Assembly: GCA_963205235.1 (NCBI GenBank)
Contig: CAUJIP010000046.1
Span: 1 to 64,000, forward strand
DNA length: 64,000 nt
Reading direction: 5' to 3'
Source of the DNA: Pseudomonadota bacterium
GTDB lineage: Bacteria; Pseudomonadota; Alphaproteobacteria; Rhodobacterales; Rhodobacteraceae
Shown here piece by piece: positions 12,225-37,070 of the stretch. Made by a program: the position numbers and the translations under genes. Within the stretch, counting starts at the first letter, position 1, and the number at the start of each line of letters is the position of its first letter. The notes below the pieces were generated by a model. That model was not told where the DNA came from and did no database searches. It saw nothing but the letters and a program-made list of their open reading frames with translations.

Positions 12225-12235
12225 GAGAGACAACA

Positions 12236-13320: not shown

Positions 13321-13323
13321 ACC

Positions 13324-14130
13324 ATGACCGACCTTCATCGCAAACCTTCGGGAAATCATGGCCTTGTCCACGACATCACAGCCGAAGGCGCAGGTTGGGG
13401 ATATGTGGGTTTTCAGCTTTACCGATTGGCGGCGGGCGAAAGCGCCAGTGGCAACCTTGGGACAGATGAGGCGATCCTTGTCTGGGTCGAGGGGAAGGGA
13501 AACCTTAAAGGCGCGGGGCGCGACTGGGGTTTTCTCGGCGACCGGATGGACGTCTTCGAACGCACCCCGCCGCATTGCGTCTATCTGCCGGGCGGGTCCG
13601 ATTGGGCGGTAACGGCGACGACTGATCTGGTGCTGGCGGTCTGCCTTGCACCGGCCAAGGGCAACTATCCGGCGGCGCAGATCGGCCCGGTGGGGATCGA
13701 ACTGACCCCGCGTGGCAAGGGCACCAACACCCGCTACGTGAACAACATCGCGATGGAAGGTCGCGACGTGGCAGGCAGCCTTCTGGTGACCGAGGTCTTC
13801 ACCCCGTCAGGCCATTGGTCCAGCTATCCCAGCCACCGGCATGACGAGGATGACTTTCCCCGCATGACCTATCTGGAGGAAACCTATTACCACCGTCTGA
13901 ACCCCGCCCAAGGGTTCGGCATCCAGCGGGTCTATACCGAAGACGGCGCGCTGGACCAGACGATGGCTGTGAAGAACCATGATGTCGTGCTGGTGCCCAA
14001 GGGCCACCACCCCTGCGGCGCGCCCTATGGCTATGACATGTATTACCTGAACGTCATGGCCGGTCCGCTGCGGAAGTGGCGGTTCAAGAACGACCCCGAC
14101 CACGACTGGATTGCCCAGCGGGACGCCTGA
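13324..14130 (+). CDS. iolB: 5-deoxy-glucuronate isomerase
   Basis: SYPSHRHDEDDFP, PKGHHPCGAPYGYDMYYLNVMAGP. Confidence 0.95.
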   Translation: MTDLHRKPSGNHGLVHDITAEGAGWGYVGFQLYRLAAGESASGNLGTDEAILVWVEGKGNLKGAGRDWGFLGDRMDVFERTPPHCVYLPGGSDWAVTATTDLVLAVCLAPAKGNYPAAQIGPVGIELTPRGKGTNTRYVNNIAMEGRDVAGSLLVTEVFTPSGHWSSYPSHRHDEDDFPRMTYLEETYYHRLNPAQGFGIQRVYTEDGALDQTMAVKNHDVVLVPKGHHPCGAPYGYDMYYLNVMAGPLRKWRFKNDPDHDWIAQRDA

Positions 14131-14979
14131 TCAGCCTGCAGTGAAAAACGGTTTCACTGTCATTGTCTGCGGTAGCGGAACGCCCATCCGCGTCAGGATG
14201 GACGGGGCCAGCGCCAGTTGGTCAAGCACCTCATCCTCGGGTGGCAGCGCGCTGTCCCCGAAGTAGTAGAAGGCGAAATCGCGCTGATCCTCTCCCGTGC
14301 CGCCATGATGGCCGCGCGCATCTTGCCCGTGGTCGGCGGTGACGATCACCTCGTACCCGGCCTTGCGCCAGCGGTGGATGAAGGGGGCCAGCGTCCCGTC
14401 CATCCGGTAGCAGGCATCGTCCATCTCTTCGCAGTCGTGATAGAACCGGTGCCCCATGCTGTCCAAGGTGCAGGTGTGCAGGATGCCGTAGTCGATCCCC
14501 TTGACCTCGCACAAACGGGTCAGCGTGCCGAACAGGTCATAATCGGCGGGGGTCATCTGGTTGTAGCCGGAATCGCCAAACATCGTATGGAACCGGCCAT
14601 GGGTGATCGGCCCGCCCGGCTCGTCATATTCGATGTCGCGGACCACGTCGAAGGGCGAGCGGTTGAAGAACTCCGACCAGAAGCTGTGCGTGACCGCCCC
14701 GGTGATCTTGCCGGCCTTGGTCAACTCGCTGAAGACATCGGGGAATTCCAACCGCCGCAGCCCCGAATTGTCCCAGATCCGGTGCACCTGTGGCGGCAGG
14801 CCAGTGTGGATCGAGGCATAGCAGGAACCCGAGGTCGAAGGCAGCACCGCCCGCATCCGCCGCACCCGCGCCTCGCCATTCGCGACCCAGCCTTCAAGGT
14901 TGCCGAACAGCCGCCGCCAGTTCCGGTAGGGCACGCCGTCAAGGATGATCAGCAGAAGTTTGGTCATGGTTTCATCCAT
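14131..14979 (-). CDS. Alkaline-phosphatase-superfamily phosphodiesterase/nucleotide pyrophosphatase
   Basis: LLLIILDGVPYRNWRRLF, LPSTSGSCYASIHTG, TCTLDSMGH, VIVTADHGQDARGHHGG. Confidence 0.85.
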   Translation of the reverse strand: MDETMTKLLLIILDGVPYRNWRRLFGNLEGWVANGEARVRRMRAVLPSTSGSCYASIHTGLPPQVHRIWDNSGLRRLEFPDVFSELTKAGKITGAVTHSFWSEFFNRSPFDVVRDIEYDEPGGPITHGRFHTMFGDSGYNQMTPADYDLFGTLTRLCEVKGIDYGILHTCTLDSMGHRFYHDCEEMDDACYRMDGTLAPFIHRWRKAGYEVIVTADHGQDARGHHGGTGEDQRDFAFYYFGDSALPPEDEVLDQLALAPSILTRMGVPLPQTMTVKPFFTAG

Positions 14980-15052
14980 CCCTCATCAGCCCTGATGGGC
15001 CTCTTCGGTGCGCGCCCAGCGAGAAAGCCCGTCAGGGCTGCCGAGCGCCCCT

Positions 15053-16693
15053 TCAGTTCCCTGCACTTTCCATCTTGCGATGTGCGATGACCTTTTCCAG
15101 CCAGCCCACCTCCATCTCAGGGACGGATGACAGAAGCAGGTCGGTGTAATCGTCAAACGGCGGTTCCAGCACGTCGGATTTCTGGCCGTAGCGCACCACC
15201 GCGCCTTTGAACATCACCGCGATCTTGTCGGAAATCGCGCGCACCGTCGCCAGGTCATGGGTGATGAACAGATAGGCCACGTTCGCCTCGGCCTGCAGGT
15301 TCAACAACAGCTTCAGGATGCCGTCCGCGACCAGCGGGTCCAGCGCCGAAGTCACCTCGTCGCAGATGATCAGCTTGGGGTTTGCCGCCAACGCCCGGGC
15401 GATGCAAACCCGCTGCTTCTGCCCGCCCGACAGTTCCGCCGGATAGCGGTCGGCAAAACCCTTGCCCATCTCGATATGGTCCAGAAGGTCCTGCACCCGG
15501 CGGTCGCGTTCGGCCCCCTTGAGACCGAAGTAGAACTCCAACGGCCGCCCGATGATCGTGCCCACCGTCTGGCGCGGGTTCATCGCGGTGTCTGCCATCT
15601 GATAGATCATCTGGATTTCGCGCAGGTCGTCCTTGGTCCGCCCCGCTAGATTGGGCGACAGGGTCCGGCCATTGAACACCATCCGACCCGATGTCGGCGG
15701 CAAAAGCCCGGTGATTGCGCGGGCGAGGGTCGATTTGCCCGACCCGCTTTCCCCCACCACCGCCAGCGTCTGGCCCGGAGGCAGTTCCACCGAGATATTC
15801 TTCAACACGTCGAAATTCGTGCCGCGATAGCGGGCGGTCACATTCTGCACTTGCAGGATAGGGGCTGAAGGCGGTTTTTCCTGATGTTCGATCCCACGGA
15901 CCGAGACCAGCGCCTTGGTATAGTCCTCACGCGGGGCGGTGATGATCTGCCCGGTCTCGCCCAGCTCGACCATCCGGCCATGGCGCAGGACCATGATCTC
16001 ATCCGCGACCTGTGCCACGACGGCAAGGTCGTGCGTGATATAAAGCGCCGCAACCTGCGTATCCCGGATCGCCTCCTTGATCGCGGCAAGCACGTCGATC
16101 TGGGTCGTCACGTCCAGCGCGGTCGTCGGTTCGTCAAAGATCACCAGGTCCGGCTTGGGGCACAGCGCCATCGCCGTCATGCAGCGCTGCAACTGTCCAC
16201 CCGAGACCTGATGCGGATAGCGGCTGCCGATGGTGTCGGGGTTCGGCAGGCCAAGCTTGCGGAACAATGCGCGCGCGCGCGCCTCGGCCTCGGGCTTTTG
16301 CATCAGGCCGTGTGACAGGCTGGTTTCGATCACCTGCTCCATGATCTGCTTGGCCGGGTTGAAACTGGCGATGGCGGACTGCGAGACATAGGTGACCTCG
16401 CGCCCGCGCAAGCTGCGCAGGGCCTTGGCGTCGGCCAACCGGATTTCACGGCCATTCAGGTGGATCGTGCCCCCGGTCAGTCGCACCCCACCACGCCCAA
16501 AGGACATGGCGGACAGGCCGATGGTCGATTTCCCCGCCCCCGATTCGCCGATCAGGCCAAGGACCTTGCCGCGTTTCAGGGTCAGGTCGACGCCATGCAC
16601 CAGCGTCACATTCTTCGGCGGCTCACCCGGCGGATAGGACGTGGCCTCGATCACAAGGCCCTTCATTGCAAGAAGCGTGTCGTCAGCCACCAC
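15053..16693 (-). CDS. Peptide-type ABC transporter ATP-binding protein, two ABC domains in one chain (DppD-DppF fusion type)
   Basis: Two Walker A ([18 protein letters not shown]) and two signatures (VSGGQLQRC, LSGGQKQRV). Confidence 0.93.
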   Translation of the reverse strand: MVADDTLLAMKGLVIEATSYPPGEPPKNVTLVHGVDLTLKRGKVLGLIGESGAGKSTIGLSAMSFGRGGVRLTGGTIHLNGREIRLADAKALRSLRGREVTYVSQSAIASFNPAKQIMEQVIETSLSHGLMQKPEAEARARALFRKLGLPNPDTIGSRYPHQVSGGQLQRCMTAMALCPKPDLVIFDEPTTALDVTTQIDVLAAIKEAIRDTQVAALYITHDLAVVAQVADEIMVLRHGRMVELGETGQIITAPREDYTKALVSVRGIEHQEKPPSAPILQVQNVTARYRGTNFDVLKNISVELPPGQTLAVVGESGSGKSTLARAITGLLPPTSGRMVFNGRTLSPNLAGRTKDDLREIQMIYQMADTAMNPRQTVGTIIGRPLEFYFGLKGAERDRRVQDLLDHIEMGKGFADRYPAELSGGQKQRVCIARALAANPKLIICDEVTSALDPLVADGILKLLLNLQAEANVAYLFITHDLATVRAISDKIAVMFKGAVVRYGQKSDVLEPPFDDYTDLLLSSVPEMEVGWLEKVIAHRKMESAGN

Positions 16694-17498
16694 GGCCCCC
16701 TTTCAGGCTTGAGGTCCGGGTCAGGATCCAGTCGGCAACAAGGTTGACGCTGATCGCCAGCGACAGGATCGCAAAGGCGGGCAGCAGGGCGGCGGACTTG
16801 CCTTGGGTAATCCCGATCTTGTTTTCCTGCAGCATGCCACCCCAGTCGGTCAGCGGCGGCTGGATGCCAAGCCCAAGGAACGACAGGGTCGAGATGAAGA
16901 GAACCGCGAAGATGAAGCGCAGGCCGAATTCGGCGACCAGCGGCGACAGGGCATTGGGCAGGATTTCCCGGAAGATGACCCAGGTGCCCTTTTCGCCACG
17001 CAGGCGGGCGGCCTCGACATAGTCCATCACGGCGATATCCGCAGCGACCGCACGCGACAGGCGGAAGACGCGGGTGGAATCCAAGAGACCCATGATCAGG
17101 ATCAACACGATCAGGTTCGGCGACATGATTGTCAGCACCACCAGCGCGATGATCAGCGACGGCACGGCCATGACAAGATCGACCAGCCGTGACAGGCCCT
17201 GATCGATCCATCCGCCCTGAACGGCGGCGGTAAAGCCAAGGAAGGCCCCCAGCGAGAAAGACAGGATCGACGAGGCCAGCGCCACGAAGATGGTGATCTG
17301 CGCGCCAAAGATCAGGCGTGACAGGATATCCCGGCCGATGGTGTCGGTGCCCAGCCAGTGGGTGGCGGACATCCCCTCCCATTGCGCGCCAGAGCTGTCG
17401 CCCACGGCATAGGGCGCCAGCCATTGCGCGAAAATGGCAACAAACAGGAACATGCCTGTAAGGGTCAGGCCGATCAGGGCGGAAATGGGTATCCTCAT
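16683..17498 (-). CDS. Peptide-type ABC transporter permease (DppC-like)
   Basis: WLGTDTIGRDILSRLIFGAQI, EAARLRGEKGTWVIFREILPNALSPLV. Confidence 0.92.
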   Translation of the reverse strand: MRIPISALIGLTLTGMFLFVAIFAQWLAPYAVGDSSGAQWEGMSATHWLGTDTIGRDILSRLIFGAQITIFVALASSILSFSLGAFLGFTAAVQGGWIDQGLSRLVDLVMAVPSLIIALVVLTIMSPNLIVLILIMGLLDSTRVFRLSRAVAADIAVMDYVEAARLRGEKGTWVIFREILPNALSPLVAEFGLRFIFAVLFISTLSFLGLGIQPPLTDWGGMLQENKIGITQGKSAALLPAFAILSLAISVNLVADWILTRTSSLKGGRGG

Positions 17499-17508
17499 TT
17501 CGGGTGCC

Positions 17509-18465
17509 TCATTTCGGGTGTCTCAGGCGCGGGTTCGACAGGATGCCGATGATGTCGGCAGCCATGTTCAGGAAGATGTAGACAGCAGCAAAGATCAGCC
17601 CGACCGCCTGCACGACCGGCAGGTCACGCTTGGTCACATGGTCGACCAGATACTTGCCAAGGGCGTTATAGCTGAACACGACCTCGACCACGACGACACC
17701 GACGACCAGATAGGCCAAGTTCAGCATCACCACCGACACGACCGGCGCGATGGCGTTGGGGAAAGCATGGCGCCAGACAACCTGCATAGGTGTCAGGCCC
17801 TTCAGTTCGGCAGTTTCGATATAGGCCGATTGCATGACGTTCAGGATCGCCGCGCGGGTCATCCGCATCATGTGTGCTAGGACGACCATCACCAGCACGA
17901 TCACCGGCAGCGCAATGGCGTGCAGCTTTTCCCAGAACCCCATGCCTGGAAGCACAAGCGAGACGGGCTGGAAGATCGGGAAGACCTGGGTCAGGAAGAA
18001 GATCACGAAATAGGCCGCCACGAATTCGGGCAGGCTGATCGTGGTCAGCGTGATTGCCGAGATCAGCTTGTCGGGCCAGCGCCCGGCATAGCGGGCGGCG
18101 ATGGTGCCCAGCAGGATCGCCAACGGAACGGCAATCACAGCGGCACTTCCAGCCAGGAACAGCGTGTTCCCCAGCTTGGATCCGATCGACTTCGCGATAT
18201 CCGCCTTGTTGGTCAGGGCCGTGCCCAGATCGCCGGTCAGGATACCGCCGAGCCAGTGGAAATAGCGCGTCAGCGCGGGTTGATCCAACCCCATCTCGGC
18301 GCGCAGATTTTCCAGCGCTTGCGGCGTTGCCGACTGGCCAAGGATGGCCTGTGCGGTATCCCCCGGCAGCGCCTCGACGCCAAGAAAGATCACCACCGAG
18401 ATGATCAGAAGGAGGACGAGGCCCAGCGCAATGCGCTGGACCACAAGTTTAAGGACGGGGTGCAT
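17509..18465 (-). CDS. Peptide-type ABC transporter permease (DppB-like)
   Basis: MRMTRAAILNVMQSAYIETAELKGLTPMQVVWRHAFPNAIAPVVSVV. Confidence 0.92.
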   Translation of the reverse strand: MHPVLKLVVQRIALGLVLLLIISVVIFLGVEALPGDTAQAILGQSATPQALENLRAEMGLDQPALTRYFHWLGGILTGDLGTALTNKADIAKSIGSKLGNTLFLAGSAAVIAVPLAILLGTIAARYAGRWPDKLISAITLTTISLPEFVAAYFVIFFLTQVFPIFQPVSLVLPGMGFWEKLHAIALPVIVLVMVVLAHMMRMTRAAILNVMQSAYIETAELKGLTPMQVVWRHAFPNAIAPVVSVVMLNLAYLVVGVVVVEVVFSYNALGKYLVDHVTKRDLPVVQAVGLIFAAVYIFLNMAADIIGILSNPRLRHPK

Positions 18466-18471
18466 GTCCCG

Positions 18472-20061
18472 TCAGGCCGTCAGCCAGCACTTGTTCAGTG
18501 CCGTGCCGTTCATCAGCGTGCCTTGCGGATCGGCGATCCAGCCAGCGACTTCGGCGCGGCGGCCTTCGACCCAGTCGTTGAACATCGGCAGGATCAGGCC
18601 GCCTTCGTCGCGCACGATATGCGCCATTTCCGAATACATGCCCTTGCGCTTGGCCGCGTCCAGTTCGCCCCGTGCTGCAATAAGCAGTTCGTCGAAATGG
18701 GCGTTCTTGAACTTGGTGTCGTTCCAGTCGGCAGTCGACAGATAGGCGGTCGTGTACATCTGGTCCTGCACCGGACGCCCACCCCAATACGAGGCGCAGA
18801 ATGGCTGCACGTTCCAGACGTTGGACCAATAGCCATCATCCGGCTCGACCTGAACCTGCAGCGGAATGCCCGCGGCATTGGCCGAAGCGGCAAAAAGGTT
18901 CGCCGCATCGACAGCGCCGGGGAAAGCGCCCGGAGCGGTGCGCAGGATGATCGGGCTGCCATCGTGGCCGGTCTTGGCGTAATATTCTGCCGCCTTGGCC
19001 GCGTCGTATTCGCGCTGCTCGATGCTGTCGTCAAACAGCGGATAAGCACCGTTGATCGGGAAGTCGTTCCCGCGCGAGCCATAGCCGCCCAGCACCTTGT
19101 CGACCAGCTCTTGCCGGTTGACCGCCATCTTCAACGCCATCCGCATGTCGTTGTTGTCGAAGGGGGCCTTGTCGACATGCATGATGAACACATAGTGGCC
19201 GGGACCAGCCGCGCGTTCGATCACGATACCGGCGTCGCCTTTCAGCGTCTCGACGATCTTGGGATCGACGCGGCTGATCATTTGAACCTGACCGGCCTGA
19301 ATTGCCGCCGAACGGGCGGTGTCGTCGTTGATCGTCAGAACCTCGACCGTATCGGCATGGCCGCGGCTCGAGTCCCAATAGTTGGCGTGCTTTTCAAAGG
19401 TGGTGATCACGCCCGGCTCGGTCGCGACAACCTTGTAAGCCCCGGTCCCGTTGCCAGCAGCAGGCGCATCGACGCCACCACCGGGCTGAACGACCAGATG
19501 ATAGTCGGCGATCAGGAACGGCAAGTCGGCGTTGGCCGCAGTAAGTTTCATCGTGACCATGTCACCTTCGGCGGTCACTTCGCTGATGCCCTGAACGATG
19601 CCCAGCGCGCCTGACTGCGCCTTTTCGTCGGTGTGGCGCTTGATCGTGGCAACCACGTCATCCGCCGTCACCGTGCCGCCGCCATGGTATTCCACGCCCG
19701 AACGGATCTTGAACTTCCATTCCGTCGCATCGGCGTTCGATGACGCTTCCTCGGCAAGCCGCATCTCGACCGCGCCATTCGCATCCACATCGACCAGGGT
19801 TTCGCCCCAGGTGCGGTTGATCATGTAGGGCACGTCCGATGCCGCCAGCGCCGGATCCAGCGAGTCGGTGCTTTGACCGCCTGCCACGCCTGCGCGGATC
19901 GTGCCGCCCTTGACCGGCTCATCCGCCAGCGCCGCCTTGGAGAACAAGGCACCGGCCAGACCAGCAGAAAGCCCCATGGCTGTCGTGCGGCCCACGAATT
20001 CGCGGCGGGTCATCCTGCCCTTGCGAACGCGTGCAATCATCAGGTCCAATTGTTCGGACAT
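18472..20061 (-). CDS. Peptide-type ABC substrate-binding protein (SBP_bac_5, Tat-type signal), paralog 1
   Basis: Tat-like TRREFVGRTTAMGLSAGLAGALFSKAALA; SBP family 5 body; tandem paralog of 20129-21727. Confidence 0.92.
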   Translation of the reverse strand: MSEQLDLMIARVRKGRMTRREFVGRTTAMGLSAGLAGALFSKAALADEPVKGGTIRAGVAGGQSTDSLDPALAASDVPYMINRTWGETLVDVDANGAVEMRLAEEASSNADATEWKFKIRSGVEYHGGGTVTADDVVATIKRHTDEKAQSGALGIVQGISEVTAEGDMVTMKLTAANADLPFLIADYHLVVQPGGGVDAPAAGNGTGAYKVVATEPGVITTFEKHANYWDSSRGHADTVEVLTINDDTARSAAIQAGQVQMISRVDPKIVETLKGDAGIVIERAAGPGHYVFIMHVDKAPFDNNDMRMALKMAVNRQELVDKVLGGYGSRGNDFPINGAYPLFDDSIEQREYDAAKAAEYYAKTGHDGSPIILRTAPGAFPGAVDAANLFAASANAAGIPLQVQVEPDDGYWSNVWNVQPFCASYWGGRPVQDQMYTTAYLSTADWNDTKFKNAHFDELLIAARGELDAAKRKGMYSEMAHIVRDEGGLILPMFNDWVEGRRAEVAGWIADPQGTLMNGTALNKCWLTA

Positions 20062-20089
20062 CGTCTTCTCCCTACCAGTTTGTTTATTG

Positions 20090-20114
20090 GGGGGCGGTCG
20101 TTTTCGCCGCCCCC
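20090..20114 (-). repeat. Intercistronic hairpin between the two substrate-binding-protein genes
   Basis: GGGGGCGG-TCGTTTTCG-CCGCCCCC, perfect 8-bp stem, no U-tract. Confidence 0.7.
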
Positions 20115-20128
20115 TCAGAATCGCAAGC

Positions 20129-21727
20129 TTAGGCGGTCAGCCAGCATTTAGACAACGCAAATCCGTTCATCATCGTGCCCTGCGGGTTTGCCACCCAGCC
20201 ACCAACCTCGGCGCGGCGACCTTCGACCCAGTCGTTGAACATCGGCGCGATCAGGCCACCCTCGTCGCGCAGGATGGTTGCCATTTCCGAATACAGGCCC
20301 TTGCGCTTGGCCCCATCAAGTTCGCCCCGCGCGGCAAGCAGAAGCTCGTCGAACTTGGCGTTCTTGAAGCGGGTGTCGTTCCATTCTGCGGTCGACAGAT
20401 AGGCGGTGGTGTACATCTGGTCCTGCACCGGACGCCCCCCCCAATACGAGGCGCAGAACGGGGCAACGTTCCAGACGTTCGACCAATAGCCGTCATCCGG
20501 CTCGACCTGGATCTGCAGCGGGATGCCTGCCGCATTGGCCGAAGACGCAAACAGGTTGGCTGCGTCGACAGCACCGGGGAATGCGCCCGGAGCGACCTGC
20601 AGCATGATCGGCGACCCGTCATGGCCGGACTTGGCATAGAACTCGGCCGCCGCCGCCGCATCGTATTCGCGCTGCGGGATGGTTTCGTCGAACAGCGGAT
20701 AGGCCGCGTTGATCGGGAAGTCGTTCCCGCGCGATCCCAGCCCGCCCAGCACCTTGTCGACCAGTTCCTGCCGGTTGATCGCCAGTTTCAAGGCCATCCG
20801 CAGGTCGTTGTTGTCGAACGGTGCCTTGTCGCAATGCATGATGAAGACATAGTGGCCGGGGCCCGCCGCGCGTTCGATGACCACACCGGTATCGCCCGAC
20901 AACGAGGCAACGGTCTTGGGATCAACCCGGTCGATCATGTGGACCTGGCCTGCCTGCAACGCAGCGATGCGGGCGGTGTCGTCGTTGATCACCAGAATCT
21001 CGACGCCGTCTGCATGGCCACGGGTCGAATCCCAGTAGTTGGCATTCTTCTCGAAGGTGGTGATGACACCCGCTTCGTTCGAGGTGATCTTGTAAGGCCC
21101 GGTCCCGTTGCCCGCTGCCGGATCGTCGACGCCGCCACCGGGCTGGATGATCAGGTGATAGTCGGCGATCAGGAACGGCAGGTCGGCGTTGGCCGAGGCC
21201 AGTTTCAGCGTGACCATGTCGCCTTCCGCCGACATCTCGCTGATGCCCTGCACGATGCCCAGCGCACCGGACTGTGCCTTTTCGTCGGTATGACGCTTCA
21301 GCGTGGCAATCACGTCATCCGCCGTGACCGTGCCGCCGCCGTGGAATTCGACGCCCGACCGGATCTTGAATTTCCACTCGGTCGCATCGGCGTTCGAGGA
21401 CACCTCTTCGGCAATCCTCATCTCGACGGTGCCGGTTTCGCTGACATCAACCAGGCATTCGCCCCAGGTCCGCAGGATAGAGAACGGGGCCGGCGATGCC
21501 GACAGCGCCGGGTCAAGCGTGTTGGTGCTTTCGCCGCCCGACATGCCAAGGCGCAGCGTGCCGCCCTTGACCGGCTCGTCCGCCAGTGCGGCCTTGGAGA
21601 ACAGCGCGCCAGCAAGCGCCGCCGAAACGCCAAGTGCCGTCGTGCGGCCCACGAATTCGCGCCGCGTCATCCGGCCCTTCTTCGCCTGACCGATCATCCA
21701 GTCCAGCTGGTTGTGCTTGTCACTCAT
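20129..21727 (-). CDS. Peptide-type ABC substrate-binding protein (SBP_bac_5, Tat-type signal), paralog 2
   Basis: MSDKHNQLDWMIGQAKKGRMTRREFVGRTTALGVSAALAGALFSKAALA; near-colinear with paralog 1 throughout. Confidence 0.92.
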   Translation of the reverse strand: MSDKHNQLDWMIGQAKKGRMTRREFVGRTTALGVSAALAGALFSKAALADEPVKGGTLRLGMSGGESTNTLDPALSASPAPFSILRTWGECLVDVSETGTVEMRIAEEVSSNADATEWKFKIRSGVEFHGGGTVTADDVIATLKRHTDEKAQSGALGIVQGISEMSAEGDMVTLKLASANADLPFLIADYHLIIQPGGGVDDPAAGNGTGPYKITSNEAGVITTFEKNANYWDSTRGHADGVEILVINDDTARIAALQAGQVHMIDRVDPKTVASLSGDTGVVIERAAGPGHYVFIMHCDKAPFDNNDLRMALKLAINRQELVDKVLGGLGSRGNDFPINAAYPLFDETIPQREYDAAAAAEFYAKSGHDGSPIMLQVAPGAFPGAVDAANLFASSANAAGIPLQIQVEPDDGYWSNVWNVAPFCASYWGGRPVQDQMYTTAYLSTAEWNDTRFKNAKFDELLLAARGELDGAKRKGLYSEMATILRDEGGLIAPMFNDWVEGRRAEVGGWVANPQGTMMNGFALSKCWLTA

Positions 21728-21823
21728 TGCATCTCTCCCGGTTTGACCCCAGAGGGCTTTTTGTTGACTCACCGATCAATAAAGCCCCGGTGCAGCGGGC
21801 TGGCAATTGATATTTTCGCAGGC

Positions 21824-23863
21824 TCAGACAAACCTGCGTTCGACCTTCTCGTCCCAGTGGCGCTCATAGACCTTGTCGGCGCCCTCCCAGGCCGTCAGCC
21901 GCGCCACCATCCGCAGGTGGGTGGCCGAGGCGGTCATCTCGGCTTCCGCCTCGGTCCGGACCGACCACCCGCCGCGCGACAGGCGCTGCTCCCAGACATG
22001 ATGCGCACGGGCGGACAGGGGATCGTCGGGATGGATCTCCCAGCGCTCGGTCAGGCTTTCGCCACTGACCAGCCCATGCGTCAGGTTTTCGCAATCGCCC
22101 TCATCCGTGACAACGACCAGCGTCTGCCTGCCGCTCAAAAGGTCGCGCTCGACATAGCGCCGGTTTTCGCCCTGCCGCAGCACCCGGTGCGCCCAGGGCC
22201 GCGCATGCTCGGCGGGTGGAGGCTCCCATTCCGCCGCATCAGCGCCCCGATGCACCGGCAGGGTCAGGCTCCCCCCCGTCACCGTCAGCACCCCCGCCTC
22301 GGGCGAGGGCCAGACGAAGGGCCAGTAGCTGTTGGACAACGCGAGCCGCAGCCGGTGTCCCGCCGCCAGCCGATAGCCCATCTGGTCGATGGCAAAGGCC
22401 ACCTCGACCCCCTGCCCCGGCACCATCGGCTCCGGCGCCTCCCGGCTGTCGCGATGACACAGGTTCAGCATCCCATGCGCGATCCGGACCGATGATCCAT
22501 CAGGCGCCAGGTCGCAAAGCCGCGCCACCACAAACCCAAGCGGCTTGTCCGACGACAGCTTCAACCGCAATTCCGCCGCGCCCAGAAGCTGCAAGTCCTC
22601 GGCCAATACCTCACCGTCAAAACACAGGGACAGCGCGTCATCGCCCGCCTGATCCCCCGGCATCTCGGCATTCAGCCCCATCGGGAAGAACTCGCCCGCC
22701 TCAAGCCCAAGGGTCTGCGGCGTCGCTACCGCAAGCGAGAACTCCGCTGCGCTTTCATCTTTGCTCAAATATCCTGCGGGGGTGCGGGGGTGCAAAACCC
22801 CCGCTCCGACAGAAGCCAGATGCAGAACCTCTGCCGTCACGCGGGGCGAAGGCCACGCACCTTCGGCAACCCAATGCCCCGCCCGGTGCTTCGGGCTCGC
22901 GTCCGGCGGTTCGGAATGCAAGATATAGGCGCGATAGGCCGGATCGGCCTCGGCTCCGTTTTCGATGCCTTTCAGCCAACGGTCCCACCAGCGGATCGCC
23001 ATTTGCAAGAACCCGACTTTCGGGCCGGGAACGGCGGTATGGGGGTATTGGTGAACCCAAGGCCCCATCACCCCCTTGGTCGGCGCGGGCGAATGTTCGA
23101 CCAGCGCCGCGACCGTGTTCATGTAATTGTCGGCCCAACCGCCCCAGATCATCGCCGGAACAATGTTCCGCCCCCAATCCTCCCCGATCGAGCCATGTTT
23201 CCAATAGGCATCGCGCGACTGGTGGCTGGCCCAGCGCGGCGCAAGCCAGGGCATCGCCTCCAGCCGCCGCAGCCAGTCGCCGCGCCAGTCGTTGCGCAGC
23301 AAAGGGTCCGGTGGGCGCGACGAATAGGCCAGCATCACCGCCCCCCAGCCGAAATTCTCGCCCAGCAGGGTGCCGCCCTTGAAATGGATGTCATCGGCAA
23401 AGCGGTCCGTCGTCGAACAGACCGACACCACCGCTTTCAACGCGGGCGGCTGGCGGAACGCGGTCTGCAGGCAGTTGAAGCCGCCCCAGCTTTTCCCCAT
23501 CATCCCCACATTGCCCGAACACCAGGGCTGACGCGACAGCCAGTCGATCACCGCCTCAGCGTCGCGCAACTCCTGCTCGGAATACTCATCCGTCATCAGC
23601 CCCTGACTGTCGCCATTACCGCGCATGTCAACACGGACGCAGGCATAGCCATGGCCCGCCACATAGGCATGCATCATCTCGTCGCGCGGCAGGGTCCCGT
23701 CGCGCTTGCGATAGGGGATGTATTCCAGCACCGCCGGAACCGGGTTTGCCCCCGCATCCTCGGGCATCCAGACCCGGGCTGACAGCCGCACCCCGTCAGG
23801 CATCGGAATGCCCATATCCTCGTGCGCGACAATGCGGCAGGGAAAGTCTTCGCGGATCGTCAT
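21824..23863 (-). CDS. CocE/NonD family hydrolase (X-Pro dipeptidyl-peptidase-like)
   Basis: MPDGVRLSARVWMPEDAG, VDMRGNGDSQGL, MMGKSWGGFNCLQTA (GxSxGG nucleophile elbow), C-terminal jelly-roll. Confidence 0.88.
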   Translation of the reverse strand: MTIREDFPCRIVAHEDMGIPMPDGVRLSARVWMPEDAGANPVPAVLEYIPYRKRDGTLPRDEMMHAYVAGHGYACVRVDMRGNGDSQGLMTDEYSEQELRDAEAVIDWLSRQPWCSGNVGMMGKSWGGFNCLQTAFRQPPALKAVVSVCSTTDRFADDIHFKGGTLLGENFGWGAVMLAYSSRPPDPLLRNDWRGDWLRRLEAMPWLAPRWASHQSRDAYWKHGSIGEDWGRNIVPAMIWGGWADNYMNTVAALVEHSPAPTKGVMGPWVHQYPHTAVPGPKVGFLQMAIRWWDRWLKGIENGAEADPAYRAYILHSEPPDASPKHRAGHWVAEGAWPSPRVTAEVLHLASVGAGVLHPRTPAGYLSKDESAAEFSLAVATPQTLGLEAGEFFPMGLNAEMPGDQAGDDALSLCFDGEVLAEDLQLLGAAELRLKLSSDKPLGFVVARLCDLAPDGSSVRIAHGMLNLCHRDSREAPEPMVPGQGVEVAFAIDQMGYRLAAGHRLRLALSNSYWPFVWPSPEAGVLTVTGGSLTLPVHRGADAAEWEPPPAEHARPWAHRVLRQGENRRYVERDLLSGRQTLVVVTDEGDCENLTHGLVSGESLTERWEIHPDDPLSARAHHVWEQRLSRGGWSVRTEAEAEMTASATHLRMVARLTAWEGADKVYERHWDEKVERRFV

Positions 23864-23956: not shown

Positions 23957-25942
23957 TCAGCCCTCTGGCACCAGAGCCAGAACCCGCATCGGGCTTCCCG
24001 TGCCGTGCTTGATCTTCAACGGCGGCACGATCAGCACCGCACCTTTCGGCGGCAGCTGATCCAGATTGCACAGGCTGGCGATCCCGAAGCAGTTGTCCCG
24101 GTGCAGATAGTTATGCGCCGGGTAAGGCGGGCTGAACTTGCCCGCCATCCCCGCATCCGTGCCGATGCATTGCGTGCCCCAGCCGACAATCCCGCGCGAC
24201 AGAAGATAGTCGATGCAGTCGGTCGACGGCCCCGGCGAATGCGAGCCGTCTTCCAGCGGATCAGGGTCTTGGTTCAGGAACAGCTCCACATCGTGGGCGC
24301 GGCGCTCCCAGTCGGTGCGCATCACCACCCATTCGCCGGGGTTGATCGCCCCGTGCTTCCGCTCCCATGCCTTCACCCCTTCCGCCGTCAGCAGGAAATC
24401 GGGGTCGGCGGCGGCATCGGCGGAACAGTCGATCACGTTGACCGGCGCGATCAGCCGCTGCACATCCAGCGTGTCGGTATAGCCGTCAGGGAAATCCTTG
24501 CCCGACAGCCAATGGTGCGGCGCATCGAAATGGGTGCCCGAGTGTTCGCCCAGTTCCAGCCAGTTCCAGGCCCAGAACGGCCCGTCCTTGTCGTACTCGC
24601 TGATCCGGTGGATCACGATGGGCGGGGTGTCCTTGGCGATGTCCTTCGGCAGCCGCAGAAGCGGAGTCTCCGGCCCCAGCACGGCGGTGCAGTCCACCAC
24701 CCGCACCTTGCCCGACAGAAGCCCCGCACCCAAGGCCCCCAACACTTCCGCCGGGTTCCCCTGCACCGCAGACTGCACGCCCCTTCCCGCAAAGCGCGAC
24801 TTGCGCCGCCGCATCGTGTCCCGCGCAATGTCGAAAACCGCGTCAATCGCCGCCTCATCCGTCACGATCCCCGGCGACAGCCGCAGGATATGACCCCGGA
24901 AGTCGACCGAATAGCCCTCGACGCCCAAGGCACCGACCACCGCAGCAGCTTCGGCCCTGTCCGGCATCCGCAGCATCGCCGCCCCCCCGCGCCGATCCGC
25001 CTCACGCGGGCCAAGAAGGGGCAGGTCCAGGGCATCGGCGTGATGGATGATCCGGTCCACCATCTTGCGGTTGCGCGCTGCAATCGCCGCCTGATCCTGC
25101 GCTGCAAACCAGCGGATCGCGGGCAGGCTGGCAATCGCGGCCACCGACCCCGGCGTGCCGGTATCGAACCGCCGGATGTCCGGCGCATATTGGAACTTGT
25201 CCAGGTCCCAGGAGAACGGGTTGTTCTGGCTGAACCAGCCGCGCCCTTCCGGCTGCAATTCGGGGATCAGCGCCTTGTCGGCATACAGAACCCCTGCCCC
25301 CGGCGTGCCGCACAGCCATTTCAGGCTGGTCGAGATCATGAAATCGACGCGCGGGTTCTGCACGTCGAACGGGATCAGCCCCACGGCTTGCGTGATATCG
25401 GCCACCATCAGACTGCCCATCACCCGCCCATGTGCCACCAGCGAAGGGTAATCCATCCGCGCCGAGGCGGTCGAGGTCACCCAGGTCAGCAGCGACAGCG
25501 CCACGTTGCGGTCCCAATGGGCGATGAAATCTTCGGTCTCAACCCAAGCCTTGCCGTCAGACATCGGCACGGTGACCAACTCGAACCCGATCTTCGGTGC
25601 CAAACCCGCCAGCAGGAAATGCAGGCTGGGAAAGCAATCCGCGCCGACCAGGACCTTCTTGCCGCGCAACAGCCCCTCGGGCAGCGCCCGGATGATCTTG
25701 TGCAGCCCGTCAGTCACGTTGTCGACATGGGTGATCGAGCCCTTGGGCGCATTCATCAGCCGCCCCCACGCCTCAAGATAATCCTGCCGCTTGCGCAGCA
25801 CATAGCCCCACTGCTTGTCGTTCGGGGCCGACCACACCGTCGCATAATCCGCCATCGCGGCAGCAAGATCGGCCTCCTTGCCGGGATACATCCCGATGGA
25901 GTGATACAGGAAATACCCGCCAGGGTCGGTGTTCGGCAGCAT
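23957..25942 (-). CDS. Fusion protein: kynureninase-like PLP (class V aminotransferase-fold) domain + cyclase / kynurenine-formamidase-like domain
   Basis: PLP half with FMISTSLKWLCGTPGAGVLYA (Lys-bearing kynureninase-type motif); C-terminal half with cyclase metal motif EHSGTHFDAPHHWLSG; continuous frame with no stop between them. Confidence 0.88.
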   Translation of the reverse strand: MLPNTDPGGYFLYHSIGMYPGKEADLAAAMADYATVWSAPNDKQWGYVLRKRQDYLEAWGRLMNAPKGSITHVDNVTDGLHKIIRALPEGLLRGKKVLVGADCFPSLHFLLAGLAPKIGFELVTVPMSDGKAWVETEDFIAHWDRNVALSLLTWVTSTASARMDYPSLVAHGRVMGSLMVADITQAVGLIPFDVQNPRVDFMISTSLKWLCGTPGAGVLYADKALIPELQPEGRGWFSQNNPFSWDLDKFQYAPDIRRFDTGTPGSVAAIASLPAIRWFAAQDQAAIAARNRKMVDRIIHHADALDLPLLGPREADRRGGAAMLRMPDRAEAAAVVGALGVEGYSVDFRGHILRLSPGIVTDEAAIDAVFDIARDTMRRRKSRFAGRGVQSAVQGNPAEVLGALGAGLLSGKVRVVDCTAVLGPETPLLRLPKDIAKDTPPIVIHRISEYDKDGPFWAWNWLELGEHSGTHFDAPHHWLSGKDFPDGYTDTLDVQRLIAPVNVIDCSADAAADPDFLLTAEGVKAWERKHGAINPGEWVVMRTDWERRAHDVELFLNQDPDPLEDGSHSPGPSTDCIDYLLSRGIVGWGTQCIGTDAGMAGKFSPPYPAHNYLHRDNCFGIASLCNLDQLPPKGAVLIVPPLKIKHGTGSPMRVLALVPEG

Positions 25943-26054: not shown

Positions 26055-27047
26055 TCAGACACTATCTGCGACCCATGCCTTGTGGCAGGCCAGTCCGTGC
26101 TTCGAGTTGCCCTGCAAAAGCGGCACCTGATCCGCGCAATCGGCATCGGCCAGACCGCAGCGGGTGCGGAAGACGCACCCCGATGGTGGTCGGAAGGGCG
26201 AGGGCAGGTCGCCGTCCAGCGGGATCACCCGCTTCGCCCGCTCGGCCTTGGGGTCCGGGATCGGCACCGCCGACAACAGCGCCTTGGTATAAGGATGCGC
26301 CGCATGGCTGAAAAGTTCGGTCGAGGATGCCTCTTCCATCACGCGCCCCAGATACAGCACCATCACCCGGTCCGAGATGTGGCGCACTACCGACAGGTCA
26401 TGCGCGATGAAGACCATCGCCAGCCCCAACTCCCGCTGCAATTCGGCCAGCAGGTTGATCACCTGCGCCTGGATCGAGACATCAAGCGCCGAAACCGGTT
26501 CGTCACAGATCAGCAGCTTCGGCTCCACGATAAGCGCGCGGGCAATCCCGATCCGCTGGCACTGACCGCCGGAAAATTCATGCGGATAGCGGTTGATCTG
26601 GTTCGGCAACAGCCCGACCCGCTCCATCATCCCCTGCACCCGCGCCTTCACTTCGGCGCGCGACAGGTCGGGGTGATGGGTGCGCAGGGGTTCGGCGATG
26701 ATCTGGCCCACGGTCATCCTTGGGTTCAGGCTGGCCAGCGGGTCCTGAAACACCATCTGGATTTCGCGGCGATAGGGCAGCATCGCGCGGGGTGCCAGCG
26801 ACAGCAGGTCGGTCTTGCCTTGCCAAAGCACTCGCCCCTCAGCCGGAACCATGCGGATCAGCGCGCGGGCAAGGGTGGACTTGCCACAGCCGGATTCGCC
26901 CACGATCCCCAGTGTTTCGCCGGGGTTCAGCGTGAATGACACCCCGTTCACCGCCCGCAACTGGCGCGGTTCTGTCCAGGGCATGTCGCCCTCACCCCGG
27001 ATGGCAAAGGTGACCGACAGGTCGCGGACATCCAGAAGCGGGGTCAT
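26055..27047 (-). CDS. Oligopeptide ABC transporter ATP-binding protein (OppF/DppF-like)
   Basis: [33 protein letters not shown]-terminal [14 protein letters not shown]. Confidence 0.93.
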
Positions 27048-28015
27048 GCCAGCACCTCCACCGTCCGGTGGCAGGCCCGCGCCCGGCCGGGGGCGAAATC
27101 CCGCAAAACCGGGGTTTCAGCCTCGCAATCCTCGCCCGCATGCGCACAGCGCGGGGCGAATGGACAGCCTTTCGGCGCGCGCGCCATGTTCGGCGGCTGG
27201 CCGGGGATGGTGACCAACGCCTCGCCATGCACCACGTCCAGCCGGGGGATCGCTCCAATCAACCCGCGGGTATAGGGATGCGAGGGGCTTTCAAACAGCG
27301 GATCGACCGGAGCCTTCTCCATCACTCGGCCGCCATACATCACCATCACCTCGCGGCAGAACCCGGCGATGACGCCAAGGTCATGCGTCACCAGCACGGT
27401 GGCCATGCCTAACTCGGCCTGCAACTCGCGCAGCAACTGCATGATCTGCGCCTGCACCGTCACATCAAGCGCGGTCGTCGGCTCGTCCGCGATCAAGATG
27501 TCGGGGCGGCACAGAAGGCTCATCGCGATCAGCACGCGCTGGCGCATGCCCCCGGAAAATTCATGCGGGTAAAGCCGCACCCGTGCGCGTGCTTCGGGGA
27601 TCTTCACCGCATCCAGCATCCGCACCGCCTCGGCCACGGCATCCGCCTTCGAGATGCCCTTGTGATGGGTCAGAACCTCGGCCATCTGGTCAGACACCCG
27701 CATATAGGGGTTTAGGCTGGTCATCGGGTCTTGAAACACCATCGCGATCCGCGCCGCCCTGATCCGGTTCAACGCCGCCACCGGCGCTCCGATCAGCTCC
27801 ACCCCATCAAACCGGGCCGAGCCACTGGCCCGCCCGTTCCGCGCCAAAAGCCCCATGATCGCGAACAAAAGCTGCGACTTGCCCGACCCGCTTTCGCCGA
27901 CGATGCCCAGCGTATCGCCCTTTTCCAAGGCGAAACTGACCCCGTTCACCGCCGAGATCACCCCATCCGGCGTGTCGAACCGGACCGACAGGTCCTTTAC
28001 CTCCAGCAACGCCAT
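27044..28015 (-). CDS. Oligopeptide ABC transporter ATP-binding protein (OppD/DppD-like)
   Basis: [46 protein letters not shown]. Confidence 0.93.
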
Positions 28016-28016
28016 C

Positions 28017-28940
28017 TTAACGGTCCTTAGGATCAAGCGCGTCGCGCAACCCGTCGCCGACGAAATAGAAGGCGTAAAGCGTCACGACAAAGAACCCGAA
28101 GGGAAACCAAAGCTGCCACATCGCGCCTTGGGTGATCGCCTTCGATCCCTCGGAAATCAGCGCGCCAAGCGAGGTCAGGGGTTCCTGCACCCCAAGACCA
28201 AGGAAGGAAATGAAGCTTTCGGTCATGATCATGTCAGGCACCAGCAGCGTGGCATAGACCGCGACGATGCCCAAGAGGTTCGGCACGATATGGCGAAAGA
28301 TGATCTTCCAGCCCGGAACGCCGCTGGCTCGTGCCGCCTCGATATATTCCTTGTGTTTCAAGGATATGGTCTGCCCCCGTACGATCCGCGCCATGCCCAG
28401 CCAGGATAGAAGCCCGATCCCGATGAAGATCATGACCATTGACCGCCCGAACATGACCAGCAGCAGGATCAGCACGAACATGAACGGGATTGCGAACAGG
28501 ATATCCACGATCCGCATCATGATCTGGTCGGTCCGCCCGCCGACATAGCCCGCGACAGCGCCATATATCGTGCCGACGACGACGGCGATGAAGGTCCCGA
28601 CCAGCCCCACCATCAGCGAAACCCGCGTGCCCTGCGCGGTGCGGGCGAACTGGTCGCGCCCCAGATCATCGGTGCCGAAGTAGTGGCCGTTCTCGAACGA
28701 CGGCATCCCCATCGTCGCGGCCGACCCGATCACGTTGAAGTCGATCTCTTCATTGCTCCACGCGGCAATCCATTCGCCGGTGAACGAAAACACCGCGATC
28801 AGCACCAGAAGCACCAACCCCGCCACCGCCGCCTTGTTGCGCAGGAACCGCCGCCGGGCATCCGCCCAAAGCGACCGGCCCTTTACCTCGTCCAGTGGCA
28901 GGCTCTCCAGCCCCCTGCCCCGCAGGCTTGCGCTTACCAT
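28017..28940 (-). CDS. Oligopeptide ABC transporter permease (OppC-like)
   Basis: [51 protein letters not shown]; start taken at ATG 28940 (MVSASLRG...). Confidence 0.9.
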
Positions 28941-28942
28941 GG

Positions 28943-29866
28943 TTAGTACCGGATCTTGGGGTCGATCCAAGCATACAGGATATCGACCAGAAGGTTGAAG
29001 AAGATGGTCAGCGCACCGACCAGAATGGTGATCCCCAGCATGACCGAATAGTCCCGGTTCAGCGCGGAATCGACGAAGGACTTGCCGATGCCACCGGTCG
29101 AAAAATACTGGTCCACCACCACCGATCCGGTGATCATCCCCACAAAGGCCGGGCCAAGGTACGACATCACCGGCAGCATCGCCGGTTTCAGCGCGTGGCG
29201 GGTGATCACCTTCCATTCCGGCAGCCCCTTGGCGCGGGCCGTGCGAATGTGGTTCGAGGTCAGCACCTCAAGCATCGAAGACCGCATGATCCGCGCGATC
29301 GACGCGATATAGGCCGTCGACAGTGCGATCACCGGCATGACCAGATACTGCCACTGCCCATCCTCCCAGCCGCCGCCGGGCAGCCAGCCCAGCTTCAGCG
29401 TGAAGACCAGCACCAGCACCGGTGCCAGCACGAAGCCGGGCAACACCGCCCCCGCGATGGCCAGCGACAGGACCAGATAATCGGCCCAAGAGTTCTGCTT
29501 GATCGCGGCGATGACCCCGGAGAGCACACCCAGCGCGGTGGCGACGACAAAGCTCCAGAACCCATAGACCAGCGTCACCGGAAAGCCCTGCGCCAGAATG
29601 TCGTTGACCGTGCGGTCCTTGTATTTGAATGACACCCCGAAATCGAAGTGGAAGATCAACCCTTTCAGGTAGATTAGCACCTGTTTCCACAGCGGCTCAT
29701 CCAGCCCGTATTTGGCGTTCAGATTGGCCAGCACCTCGGCGGGCAGCTTCCGCTCGCCGGTAAAGGGGCCACCAGGGGCCGCATGCATCAGGATCGCCGA
29801 AGCGACGATCAGGATCAGAAGGGTCGGGATGGCGACGAGCAGTCGCTTGAAGATGTAGGACAGCAT
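28943..29866 (-). CDS. Oligopeptide ABC transporter permease (OppB-like)
   Basis: MLSYIFKRLLVAIPTLLILIVASAILMHAAPGGPF; ARAKGLPEWKVITRHALKPAMLPVMSYLGP. Confidence 0.93.
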   Translation of the reverse strand: MLSYIFKRLLVAIPTLLILIVASAILMHAAPGGPFTGERKLPAEVLANLNAKYGLDEPLWKQVLIYLKGLIFHFDFGVSFKYKDRTVNDILAQGFPVTLVYGFWSFVVATALGVLSGVIAAIKQNSWADYLVLSLAIAGAVLPGFVLAPVLVLVFTLKLGWLPGGGWEDGQWQYLVMPVIALSTAYIASIARIMRSSMLEVLTSNHIRTARAKGLPEWKVITRHALKPAMLPVMSYLGPAFVGMITGSVVVDQYFSTGGIGKSFVDSALNRDYSVMLGITILVGALTIFFNLLVDILYAWIDPKIRY

Positions 29867-29874
29867 GATGTGGC

Positions 29875-29898
29875 GGGGGCAGTCCGAAAACCGCCCCC
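29875..29898 (-). repeat. Intercistronic hairpin between oppA-like and oppB-like genes
   Basis: GGGGGC-N12-GCCCCC between the substrate-binding-protein stop and the permease start. Confidence 0.6.
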
Positions 29899-29906
29899 TT
29901 CCCCGA

Positions 29907-31520
29907 TCATTCGGCCACGCGATAGATGTCTTTCAGATACCAGTTGCCAAAGACGTTGTGGCTGGCATAGCCGCGGATATCGGCCTTCAGCATCCGGCTG
30001 GAGGTATAGTGATAGATCGGGATGATCGGCATGTCGGCGGCCAGCAGCTTTTCCGCCTCGGTATAGTTCGGCTGCGGATCGGCCATGGTCTTCGACTCAG
30101 CCATCAGCTTGTCATAGGCTTCCGACATATAGGCCACGTCGTTGAAGCCCGAAGACGAGGTGAACAGGTCCAAAAAGGTCGACGCCTCGTTATAGTCACC
30201 GCACCAGGCCGACCGCGCCAGTTCATAGGTGCGTTCATGCATGATGTCGGAATGGACCTTCCATTCCATGTTGTTCAGCGTCAGCTCGACCCCGATGGCC
30301 TTGTAGAATTGCTGCACCGCGATGGCGATCTTCTTGTGCCCTTCGTCGGTGTTGTAGTTCAGCGTCAGCTTCAGGGGATTGTCCGGGCCATAGCCCGCCT
30401 CGGCCAGCAGGGCCTTGGCCTTTTCGTTCCGCTCTTCCTGCGTCCAGGTCGCATAGTCGACTTCTGGCACGGTGAACCCAGCCATGGCCGCCGGGGTCAG
30501 GGTATAGGCCGGGATCTGGCCCGATTGCAGGATCTTGTCGGTGATGATGTTGCGATCAACTGCATAGGACAGGGCCAGACGAACGCGCGGGTCCTTCAGC
30601 GCCTCGGGGCCTTTCTCGGCATCCATGTTCATCAGGTAGTAATAGGTGCAGGCACGCGGCGCGCTGAATGCTTCATCGGGCCGGTCCGCAGAAAGCTGAG
30701 GATACATGCCCGACGGGATCGCCACATTGTCCAGCTCGCCCGCGTCATAGCGCGTCAGCGCGATGGAGTTGTCATTGATCGTCAGGAACACGCCCGTTTC
30801 AAGCACGGTCGCCGCATCGTTCCAGTAATTGTGGTTGCGGCTGACGACGACTTTTTCCCCCGGCTTGTGTTCGCTCAGCACATAGGCGCCGTTGCCGACC
30901 AGATTGCCCGGATCAGTCCATTTCGCCCCGAAGGCGTCGATGGTGGCCTTGTGGACCGGCAAAAGCGCCGAATGCACCGTCATCTTCACGAAGTAGGGCA
31001 AGGGCTGGGCCAGTTTGACCTCAAGCGTCAGGTCATCGACCGCCTTGACGCCCAGATCGGTCGGGGGCTTTTCCCCGGCAATGACCGCCGTCGCATTCTC
31101 GATCTGCGCCAGCTCCGCATACCAGGCATAGGACGAGGCGGTGGCCGGGTCCGCCAGCCGCTGCCAGGCATAGACATAATCCCCCGCCGTCACCGGATCG
31201 CCGTTCGACCACTTGGACTCGGGCCGCAGATGGAAAGTATAGGTCAACTTGTCGTCGCTGACCGTGTAATCCAAGGCCCCGGCGGGGATAAGATCACCAT
31301 TGTCCGCCTCGGTATAAAGCCCTTCGAACAACTGCCGCGCGACATCGCTGTCCTCGACCGACTCGATCAACTGCGGGTCCAGCGTCGCCGTCGCATCCAG
31401 AAGCCAGAACGAAAAGCTCTGGTTTTCCGCAAGCGTATCGGCCGGATCGACCGTGGCGGCAAAGGCCGCGCCTGCGATGGTTGTGGACAGCAGCGTCGCA
31501 AGAAGCAGGTGTCGGGTCAT
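29907..31520 (-). CDS. Oligopeptide ABC transporter substrate-binding protein (OppA-like)
   Basis: Signal peptide MTRHLLLATLLSTTIAGAAFA; SBP_bac_5 body, C-term NVFGNWYLKDIYRVAE. Confidence 0.93.
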   Translation of the reverse strand: MTRHLLLATLLSTTIAGAAFAATVDPADTLAENQSFSFWLLDATATLDPQLIESVEDSDVARQLFEGLYTEADNGDLIPAGALDYTVSDDKLTYTFHLRPESKWSNGDPVTAGDYVYAWQRLADPATASSYAWYAELAQIENATAVIAGEKPPTDLGVKAVDDLTLEVKLAQPLPYFVKMTVHSALLPVHKATIDAFGAKWTDPGNLVGNGAYVLSEHKPGEKVVVSRNHNYWNDAATVLETGVFLTINDNSIALTRYDAGELDNVAIPSGMYPQLSADRPDEAFSAPRACTYYYLMNMDAEKGPEALKDPRVRLALSYAVDRNIITDKILQSGQIPAYTLTPAAMAGFTVPEVDYATWTQEERNEKAKALLAEAGYGPDNPLKLTLNYNTDEGHKKIAIAVQQFYKAIGVELTLNNMEWKVHSDIMHERTYELARSAWCGDYNEASTFLDLFTSSSGFNDVAYMSEAYDKLMAESKTMADPQPNYTEAEKLLAADMPIIPIYHYTSSRMLKADIRGYASHNVFGNWYLKDIYRVAE

Positions 31521-31786
31521 CAGGGTCCTCCTGGGATTTGGGCCAGCTCCGGGCATGGCGTGATCGCTTCAGACTAGACCCGGATTTCAGCCTGTCCAGC
31601 CAATCTCGTTCGGTTGGCGTGACGTCGTTTCGTCAAACTGCCAGTCCCACCCTGCGAAATGCCCGACACATCAGACAATGCGCAACCGTTCATGGCAATC
31701 TGCCACTGCCACAGCATCGGCTTAGCAGGAAAACCCGGCCTGCCGAAGTCATGCGCCCAACCTGTCGATGGGCCGAAGGCGATGGC

Positions 31787-35631: not shown

Positions 35632-35719
35632 GCTGCCCCCCAGTCCCTGCCTCAGTCCCCGCTTTGGTCCTTTGGGCAGCTAGTGCAGGATCACCCTCCT
35701 GTCACCCCCGGAAGCGACA

Positions 35720-36964: not shown

Positions 36965-37070
36965 CCGACCCTGTTCCCCTGGCTTTCCCGGGAATGGTTT
37001 CCACGAAGCATCCGCTTGCGCAAGTCTTGGTCGACACACCCGACATCAGCCCAAGGCCACACTGGGCAGG

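Follow-up and report, generated by a model that had tools for sequence, protein, structure and literature searches.

Isatin hydrolase B owes its name to its substrate in vitro, and its cellular role is only presumed. The isatin hydrolases carry a GLAS or GLQC signature at a place where the kynurenine formamidase KynB has I(L/I)E, with a second metal ligand (PMC6117287). Isatin is also met in the degradation of auxin. The iad route ends with the conversion of isatin to isatinic acid and then to anthranilate, and the iad loci carry MarR as well as the subunits of IOR, an indolepyruvate-ferredoxin-oxidoreductase-type enzyme made of alpha and beta subunits (PMC9613470, PMC12633357). Tryptophan breaks down to five major products, among them kynurenine, N-formylkynurenine, oxindolylalanine and dioxindolylalanine (PMC8228365). 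The pyridoxal phosphate (PLP) aminotransferases Aro8 and TyrB couple the beta carbon of L-alanine to isatin, giving a product of m/z 237, and kynureninase (KynU) is cited in the same work as natively forming a nucleophilic aminoacrylate (PMC13397446). Read from its mass and from the reaction described, this product would be dioxindolylalanine.

The gene discussed here associates these themes in a single chain. It lies in a contig of a Rhodobacteraceae genome, of which we analysed a stretch of 64,000 nucleotides (the window). Located on the minus strand at 23957..25942, it runs from ATG to TGA through 661 codons without an internal stop, and codes for a PLP domain followed by an isatin hydrolase domain, as seen from the open reading frame, Pfam, a search of the PDB and the relatives. 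The original prediction of an uninterrupted reading frame at this place, joining a PLP domain to a cyclase-family metal hydrolase, proved right: Pfam places Aminotran_5 at residues 61-343 (E 8.6e-23) and Cyclase at residues 417-597 (E 2e-31), both above the curated cut-offs, and the two motifs then singled out can be read at residues 205-217 (TSLKWLCGTPGAG) and 466-478 (EHSGTHFDAPHHW). In the alignment, a poorly conserved linker (residues about 380-398, 24749..24805, minus strand) separates the domains. The same chain, with the same domain order, is found uninterrupted in about 50 other Rhodobacteraceae genomes at 70-91% identity, and further fused copies came to light when the family was searched genome by genome. 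In an even draw of 397 genomes of the family, used for all co-occurrence counts, the PLP half is present in 51; about 15 of these have the fusion, the others mostly a stand-alone gene of about 370-400 amino acids. A tree of the PLP half gathers all 51 fused rows in a single clade of 55 (SH-aLRT 97), where three genuine stand-alone genes are nested (L101, L102, L103), the fourth non-fused row (L052) being merely cut by a contig end. This pattern fits a single fusion event, after which the hydrolase half was lost a few times. That an assembly error or a frameshift joined two genes, an idea to which the stand-alone relatives of both halves might lend some colour, has practically no chance of being right and was rejected, given the unbroken chain in about 50 independent genomes and the one supported clade of fused rows. 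An AlphaFold model of the whole fusion, built with 26 close relatives, reached a pLDDT of only 49 and was left out of the analysis.

The C-terminal half (residues about 399-661 and the stop, 23957..24748, minus strand) was delimited by Pfam, the PDB search and alignment. A phmmer comparison with the PDB puts isatin hydrolase B of Labrenzia aggregata first (4j0n, 439 bits, E 1.8e-130); three isatin hydrolases A (5nmp, 5nna, 5nnb) come next, and the best of the remaining cyclase-family matches is much lower, at 78 bits. The manganese site and catalytic motif HxGTHxDxPxH (His467, His471, Asp473, His477; 24512..24544, minus strand) was located by alignment and by comparison with the published enzyme (PMC6117287). 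The metal ligands His467, His471 and Asp473 are kept, as is the catalytic Asp-His-His set (D596, H610 and H477, equivalent to Asp193, His207 and His79 of LaIHA), which is invariant in the alignment of fusions. The aromatic pocket is kept as well, with W457, W459, W478 and Y607 standing for the WxW/FxW motif and the equivalents of Trp84 and Phe209/Tyr204. No loss of a metal or catalytic residue was thus seen in this half. Among the fused rows, 54 of 55 have the metal motif in the form HxG[T/A]HxDxPxH, and at least one fused row (L045) ends before the motif. By motif comparison, residues 620-623 (24074..24085, minus strand) occupy the signature position of isatin hydrolase B; the sequence there is GIAS in the window and in one further fused row, and GLAS in 52 of 55. 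With respect to the published motif, the change of leucine to isoleucine is, to judge by the sequence, a conservative one. The I(L/I)E motif of KynB is missing there, and the half scores 20.6 bits with the curated arylformamidase model TIGR03035, the cut-off of which is 223. Because 4j0n is the top match, the published residues and signature are kept and TIGR03035 fails, the C-half is very probably an isatin hydrolase, presumably manganese-dependent. A metal hydrolase of the cyclase family with intact metal residues had been expected and is what we find; its earlier identification as a kynurenine formamidase has to be given up. This agrees with the distribution in the family, where 121 of the 188 genomes with a tryptophan dioxygenase (TDO) have no isatin hydrolase, so that this enzyme is not the formamidase of the family. 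A role as KynB, considered for isatin hydrolase, was set aside as unlikely on the same count.

The N-terminal half (residues 1-379, 24805..25942, minus strand) is a PLP domain of fold type I, assigned from Pfam, profiles, alignment and a structural model. Its best single-sequence match is kynureninase 1qz9, which is also the best match of a profile of the family (230.6 bits, the next non-kynureninase family being at 112) and the best fold match of a model of the PLP half built from a wider alignment (pLDDT 95.6, TM 0.85). With the curated kynureninase model TIGR01814, however, the N-half reaches 42.6 bits for a cut-off of 246.4, against 282.3 for the genome's own KynU. To compare residues, 83 rows (51 fused and 32 stand-alone) were aligned with this KynU. 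All keep Lys208, the expected Schiff-base lysine (codon 25319..25321, minus strand), Asp182, Trp236 of the GWF motif, Thr263 (serine in one row) and Arg354 (codon 24881..24883, minus strand), which aligns with the kynureninase arginine that binds the carboxylate of the substrate. In all 83, by contrast, the kynureninase tyrosine preceding the PLP lysine is replaced by leucine (Leu207) and the histidine of DxxH by glutamine (Gln185). In the alignment of the PLP family, furthermore, the aspartate after FPS is mostly leucine, isoleucine, valine or asparagine, and the histidine of GWxGH is glutamine. Cleavage of the kynureninase type is known to use the very tyrosine that this family has lost, a point against the reaction proposed below. 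The residues kept and those replaced together suggest that an amino acid pocket remains, with altered chemistry. The expectation of a kynureninase-like PLP domain therefore stands for the fold, the PLP lysine, the aspartate and the arginine, not for kynureninase identity: on alignment and profile grounds, this half shares the kynureninase fold without being a kynureninase, and forms a separate PLP family. The relatives bear no other database label than 'aminotransferase class V-fold'.

The reading first given to the gene was a fusion of the KynB and KynU activities of tryptophan catabolism. Kynurenine formamidase and kynureninase acting in one chain on N-formylkynurenine would suit the folds of the two halves, and the genome leaves room for such a protein, as it holds just two PF04199 proteins, both isatin hydrolases, and a genome-wide search found no cyclase-family KynB. 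Yet the same genome has, on a different contig (L082, G000:C57), a canonical kynA adjacent to a true kynU. No kynA is visible in the window, as had been remarked, but the statement does not extend to the genome. This separate pair implies that the PLP half is a paralogous protein of different function, and that the fusion does not replace the kynurenine pathway. Adding the model scores, the tyrosine and histidine lost throughout the relatives, GIAS in place of the KynB motif, and the many TDO genomes devoid of isatin hydrolase, the KynU-KynB reading was rejected as very unlikely. Even less credible is a variant where the PLP half would cleave N-formylkynurenine or a similar N-acyl kynurenine and the hydrolase half deacylate the resulting N-acylanthranilate. 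This too would make two consecutive steps, leading to anthranilate, and in L103 TDO and kynU are found near a stand-alone PLP gene; but coupling to IOR demands a 2-oxo acid, not anthranilate, and the pocket conserved in the hydrolase half is specific for isatin.

What the PLP half is associated with, beyond its fused partner, can be read from the genomes. Isatin hydrolase B is present in 46 of the 51 genomes with the PLP half and in 22 of the 346 others (p 2e-37, Fisher, 397 genomes), and when fused genomes are left out it is still found in 31 of 36 (p 3e-26), these p-values being too small because the loci share ancestry and their independence is overstated. IOR alpha follows the same trend (47 of 51 against 48 of 346). 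Both IOR genes lie within the stretch around the fusion in 11 of 50 fused loci, and in 10 of these 11 the alpha gene starts between -1 and 6 bp from the stop of the fusion. Around the fusion in the window neither the IOR genes nor MarR are found; in this genome IOR alpha and beta, with MarR, are on another contig (L083). A label of IOR alpha in L121 (26% identity, 1146 amino acids) was set aside as that of a distant paralog. Stand-alone PLP genes cluster with isatin hydrolase, IOR, MarR and genes for 2-aminobenzoyl-CoA: of 30 loci, 8 have isatin hydrolase within 10 kb, 6 have IOR beta and 6 have a bifunctional salicylyl-CoA 5-hydroxylase, which is of the 2-aminobenzoyl-CoA monooxygenase/reductase type (1266 bits against 1078). 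Two cases outside the family point the same way. On a Caballeronia plasmid, the PLP gene is accompanied by a Liv-type transporter, a porin, IOR alpha and beta, a thioesterase, the bifunctional salicylyl-CoA 5-hydroxylase and MarR, together with an A-type isatin hydrolase (GLQC motif, 48% identical to the domain in the window), and G702 has the PLP gene with a porin, an amino acid permease, HpcH, IOR alpha and beta, and isatin hydrolase. Since the B-type is its companion elsewhere, the PLP gene is seen with isatin hydrolases of either type. We consider it likely that both halves serve one pathway to isatinate, a compound that the original prediction had listed among substrates to try and that matches the identity of the C-half. 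The association has exceptions. At the thresholds used, neither isatin hydrolase nor IOR was detected in the PLP-positive genomes G070, G229, G345 and G368, and G156 has IOR without isatin hydrolase; the product of the PLP enzyme may therefore not always be isatin. In G229 the neighbours of the PLP gene are instead genes for tryptophan dioxygenase, for kynureninase and for the 2-aminobenzoyl-CoA route.

Several further features of these loci deserve a mention. The L083 region of the same genome (G000:C45:76000-92000) is a second isatin hydrolase cluster, with a stand-alone enzyme, and contains, next to the IOR and MarR genes, two CrtI/CrtO-like FAD oxidoreductases, an Opp-type transporter, a luciferase-like monooxygenase and a flavin reductase. 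In relatives from Tabrizicola and Rhodobacter (L006, L007, L013, L019, L027, L041, L049, L050), a cytochrome P450, a glutamine-synthetase-like protein and a 2Fe-2S ferredoxin are encoded just upstream of the fusion, with a possible part in forming or activating its substrate. An HpcH/HpaI aldolase, a CoA-transferase family protein and a GFO/IDH/MocA oxidoreductase recur downstream in about 12 loci (L012, L008, L011, L023 and others).

In the window, the surroundings are as had been described. The fusion belongs to a run of genes on the minus strand, identified with Pfam and curated models: directly upstream, a peptide importer OppA-OppB-OppC-OppD-OppF (26055..31556); 93 bp downstream, a CocE/NonD hydrolase of the peptidase S15 type with S15/PepX_C domains (21824..23863), possibly a peptide- or acyl-releasing partner; and beyond it (14131..21772) a second peptide-type ABC set, composed of two family-5 binding proteins, two permeases and a double ATPase, with a phosphodiesterase-like gene. 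L003, the closest relative, has the same gene order downstream of the fusion, CocE/NonD gene included. Transporters vary among loci (Opp, SBP3-type, TRAP, Liv, permease), amino acid or peptide types being commonest, and Opp recurs with an M20 peptidase near the PLP gene in L004, L139, L124 and L127. A dedicated pathway for an imported substrate, as first suggested, is consistent with this peptide-uptake setting, the cargo being probably an amino acid derived from tryptophan; N-formylkynurenine does not suit an N-half that is no kynureninase and a C-half that is an isatin hydrolase. Elsewhere in the window, inositol-catabolism-like genes occupy about 8500-14130 on the plus strand (a TPP enzyme at 10392-12224, a xylose-isomerase-like TIM barrel at 12236-13132 and KduI/IolB at 13324-14130). 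On the minus strand (33631-37039), a hydantoinase/oxoprolinase-type protein (33631-35631) adjoins a sigma-54 factor gene (35720-37039). An open frame on the plus strand (57146-64000) runs off the end of the window, with bacterial alpha-2-macroglobulin and PAN domains; the gene itself probably begins beyond the histidine kinase gene at 56507-59038 (minus strand).

We infer the substrate of the PLP half as follows. An arginine that binds a carboxylate in a PLP enzyme points to an amino acid, and if isatin is to arise through a kynureninase-type cleavage between Cbeta and Cgamma, this amino acid would be dioxindolylalanine. The PLP domain would bind dioxindolyl-L-alanine (3-hydroxy-2-oxindolyl-alanine) by its alpha-carboxylate, through Arg354, and by its amino group, through Lys208-PLP. 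Loss of the alpha proton would lead to a ketimine, and a kynureninase-like retro-aldol step would break the Cbeta-Cgamma bond, the 3-hydroxyl becoming the ketone at C3, so as to release isatin and an alanine enamine that ends as L-alanine. The fused manganese-dependent domain would then open isatin to isatinate. To judge from the enzyme class and the adjoining 2-aminobenzoyl-CoA genes, isatinate, a 2-oxo acid, would be oxidatively decarboxylated by the IOR-type enzyme to 2-aminobenzoyl-CoA, which would enter the 2-aminobenzoyl-CoA monooxygenase/reductase and a beta-oxidation-like route. In the source genome the amino acid would probably be imported within peptides, via the flanking Opp systems. 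That the fusion is a bifunctional catabolic enzyme for an amino acid of oxidised tryptophan, with an exact PLP substrate and an order of steps that we deduce, has in our view an even chance. The complete proposal, slightly less assured, is a new PLP activity, a dioxindolylalanine lyase forming isatin and alanine and fused to isatin hydrolase, which would open a route from oxidised tryptophan to 2-aminobenzoyl-CoA beside the kynurenine pathway in Rhodobacteraceae and some Burkholderiales.

Two other schemes keep the isatin pathway and change the role of the PLP domain. The hydrolase could act first, opening the lactam of dioxindolylalanine or of a relative, and the PLP domain could then yield isatinate and alanine directly. 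The products would be the same, for the same IOR step, and the ring-opened intermediate would be more kynurenine-like, which suits a kynureninase fold; the pocket and signature that the hydrolase half retains are those of isatin hydrolases, however, and 22 genomes of the family have free isatin hydrolases without a PLP gene, which makes this order rather improbable. It is also conceivable, if on balance unlikely, that the PLP domain catalyses something else, a beta-lyase reaction, a transamination or the cleavage of a conjugate, on another amino acid derived from indole or auxin, for example an oxidised conjugate of indole-3-acetate with an amino acid, the fusion reflecting a wider isatin pathway that the two halves share. 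IOR and MarR are typical of the iad loci for auxin degradation, the M20 peptidases and Opp systems mentioned above would find a place, and so would the PLP genomes that have neither isatin hydrolase nor IOR. Against this, the published iad loci that we covered mention no PLP enzyme, a fusion favours consecutive steps, and the PLP gene pairs with two types of isatin hydrolase.

If cleavage of dioxindolylalanine to isatin is indeed the reaction, it would assign a substrate and a reaction to a PLP family now known by its fold label alone, and explain the source of isatin in bacteria whose starting compound is neither auxin nor indole. Oxidised tryptophan residues, which are common products of light and oxidants, would become a dedicated nutrient, and the leftovers of tryptophan would have a second route beside the classical kynurenine pathway. 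The reverse reaction is sought for making gamma-hydroxy amino acids (PMC13397446). Within the literature that could be searched, which includes few subscription papers, we found no description of the fusion, of the PLP family or of the proposed activity, and no paper that deals with isatin hydrolase and kynureninase together, with isatinate alongside anthranilate and pyridoxal, or with dihydrokynurenine and kynureninase. Both folds are known already; their fusion, this PLP family and its suggested activity are apparently new.

Set against the systems with which we began, the locus combines familiar parts in an unusual way. With isatin hydrolases B (4j0n) and A (5nmp, 5nna, 5nnb), the C-half aligns over its full length, including metal, catalytic, pocket and signature residues, but the known enzymes are stand-alone, whereas here the isatin hydrolase is the C-terminal half of a PLP protein. 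Kynureninase (1qz9, 3e9k) is the nearest solved family for the N-half, with which it has in common the fold, the PLP lysine and aspartate, the tryptophan of GWF, the GT motif and the carboxylate arginine; it differs by a score far below the curated threshold and by the replacements of tyrosine, histidine and aspartate, in a genome that has a true KynU besides. The iad loci of Variovorax, Bradyrhizobium and Ruegeria pomeroyi resemble the proposed pathway in isatin, isatinic acid, IOR and MarR (PMC9613470, PMC12633357), yet they start from indole-3-acetate with a Rieske oxygenase, while a PLP gene implies an amino acid as the substrate. As for Aro8 and TyrB, their coupling of alanine to isatin is a non-native side activity of enzymes from another PLP subfamily (PMC13397446), and the reaction that we propose for the PLP half would be its reverse.
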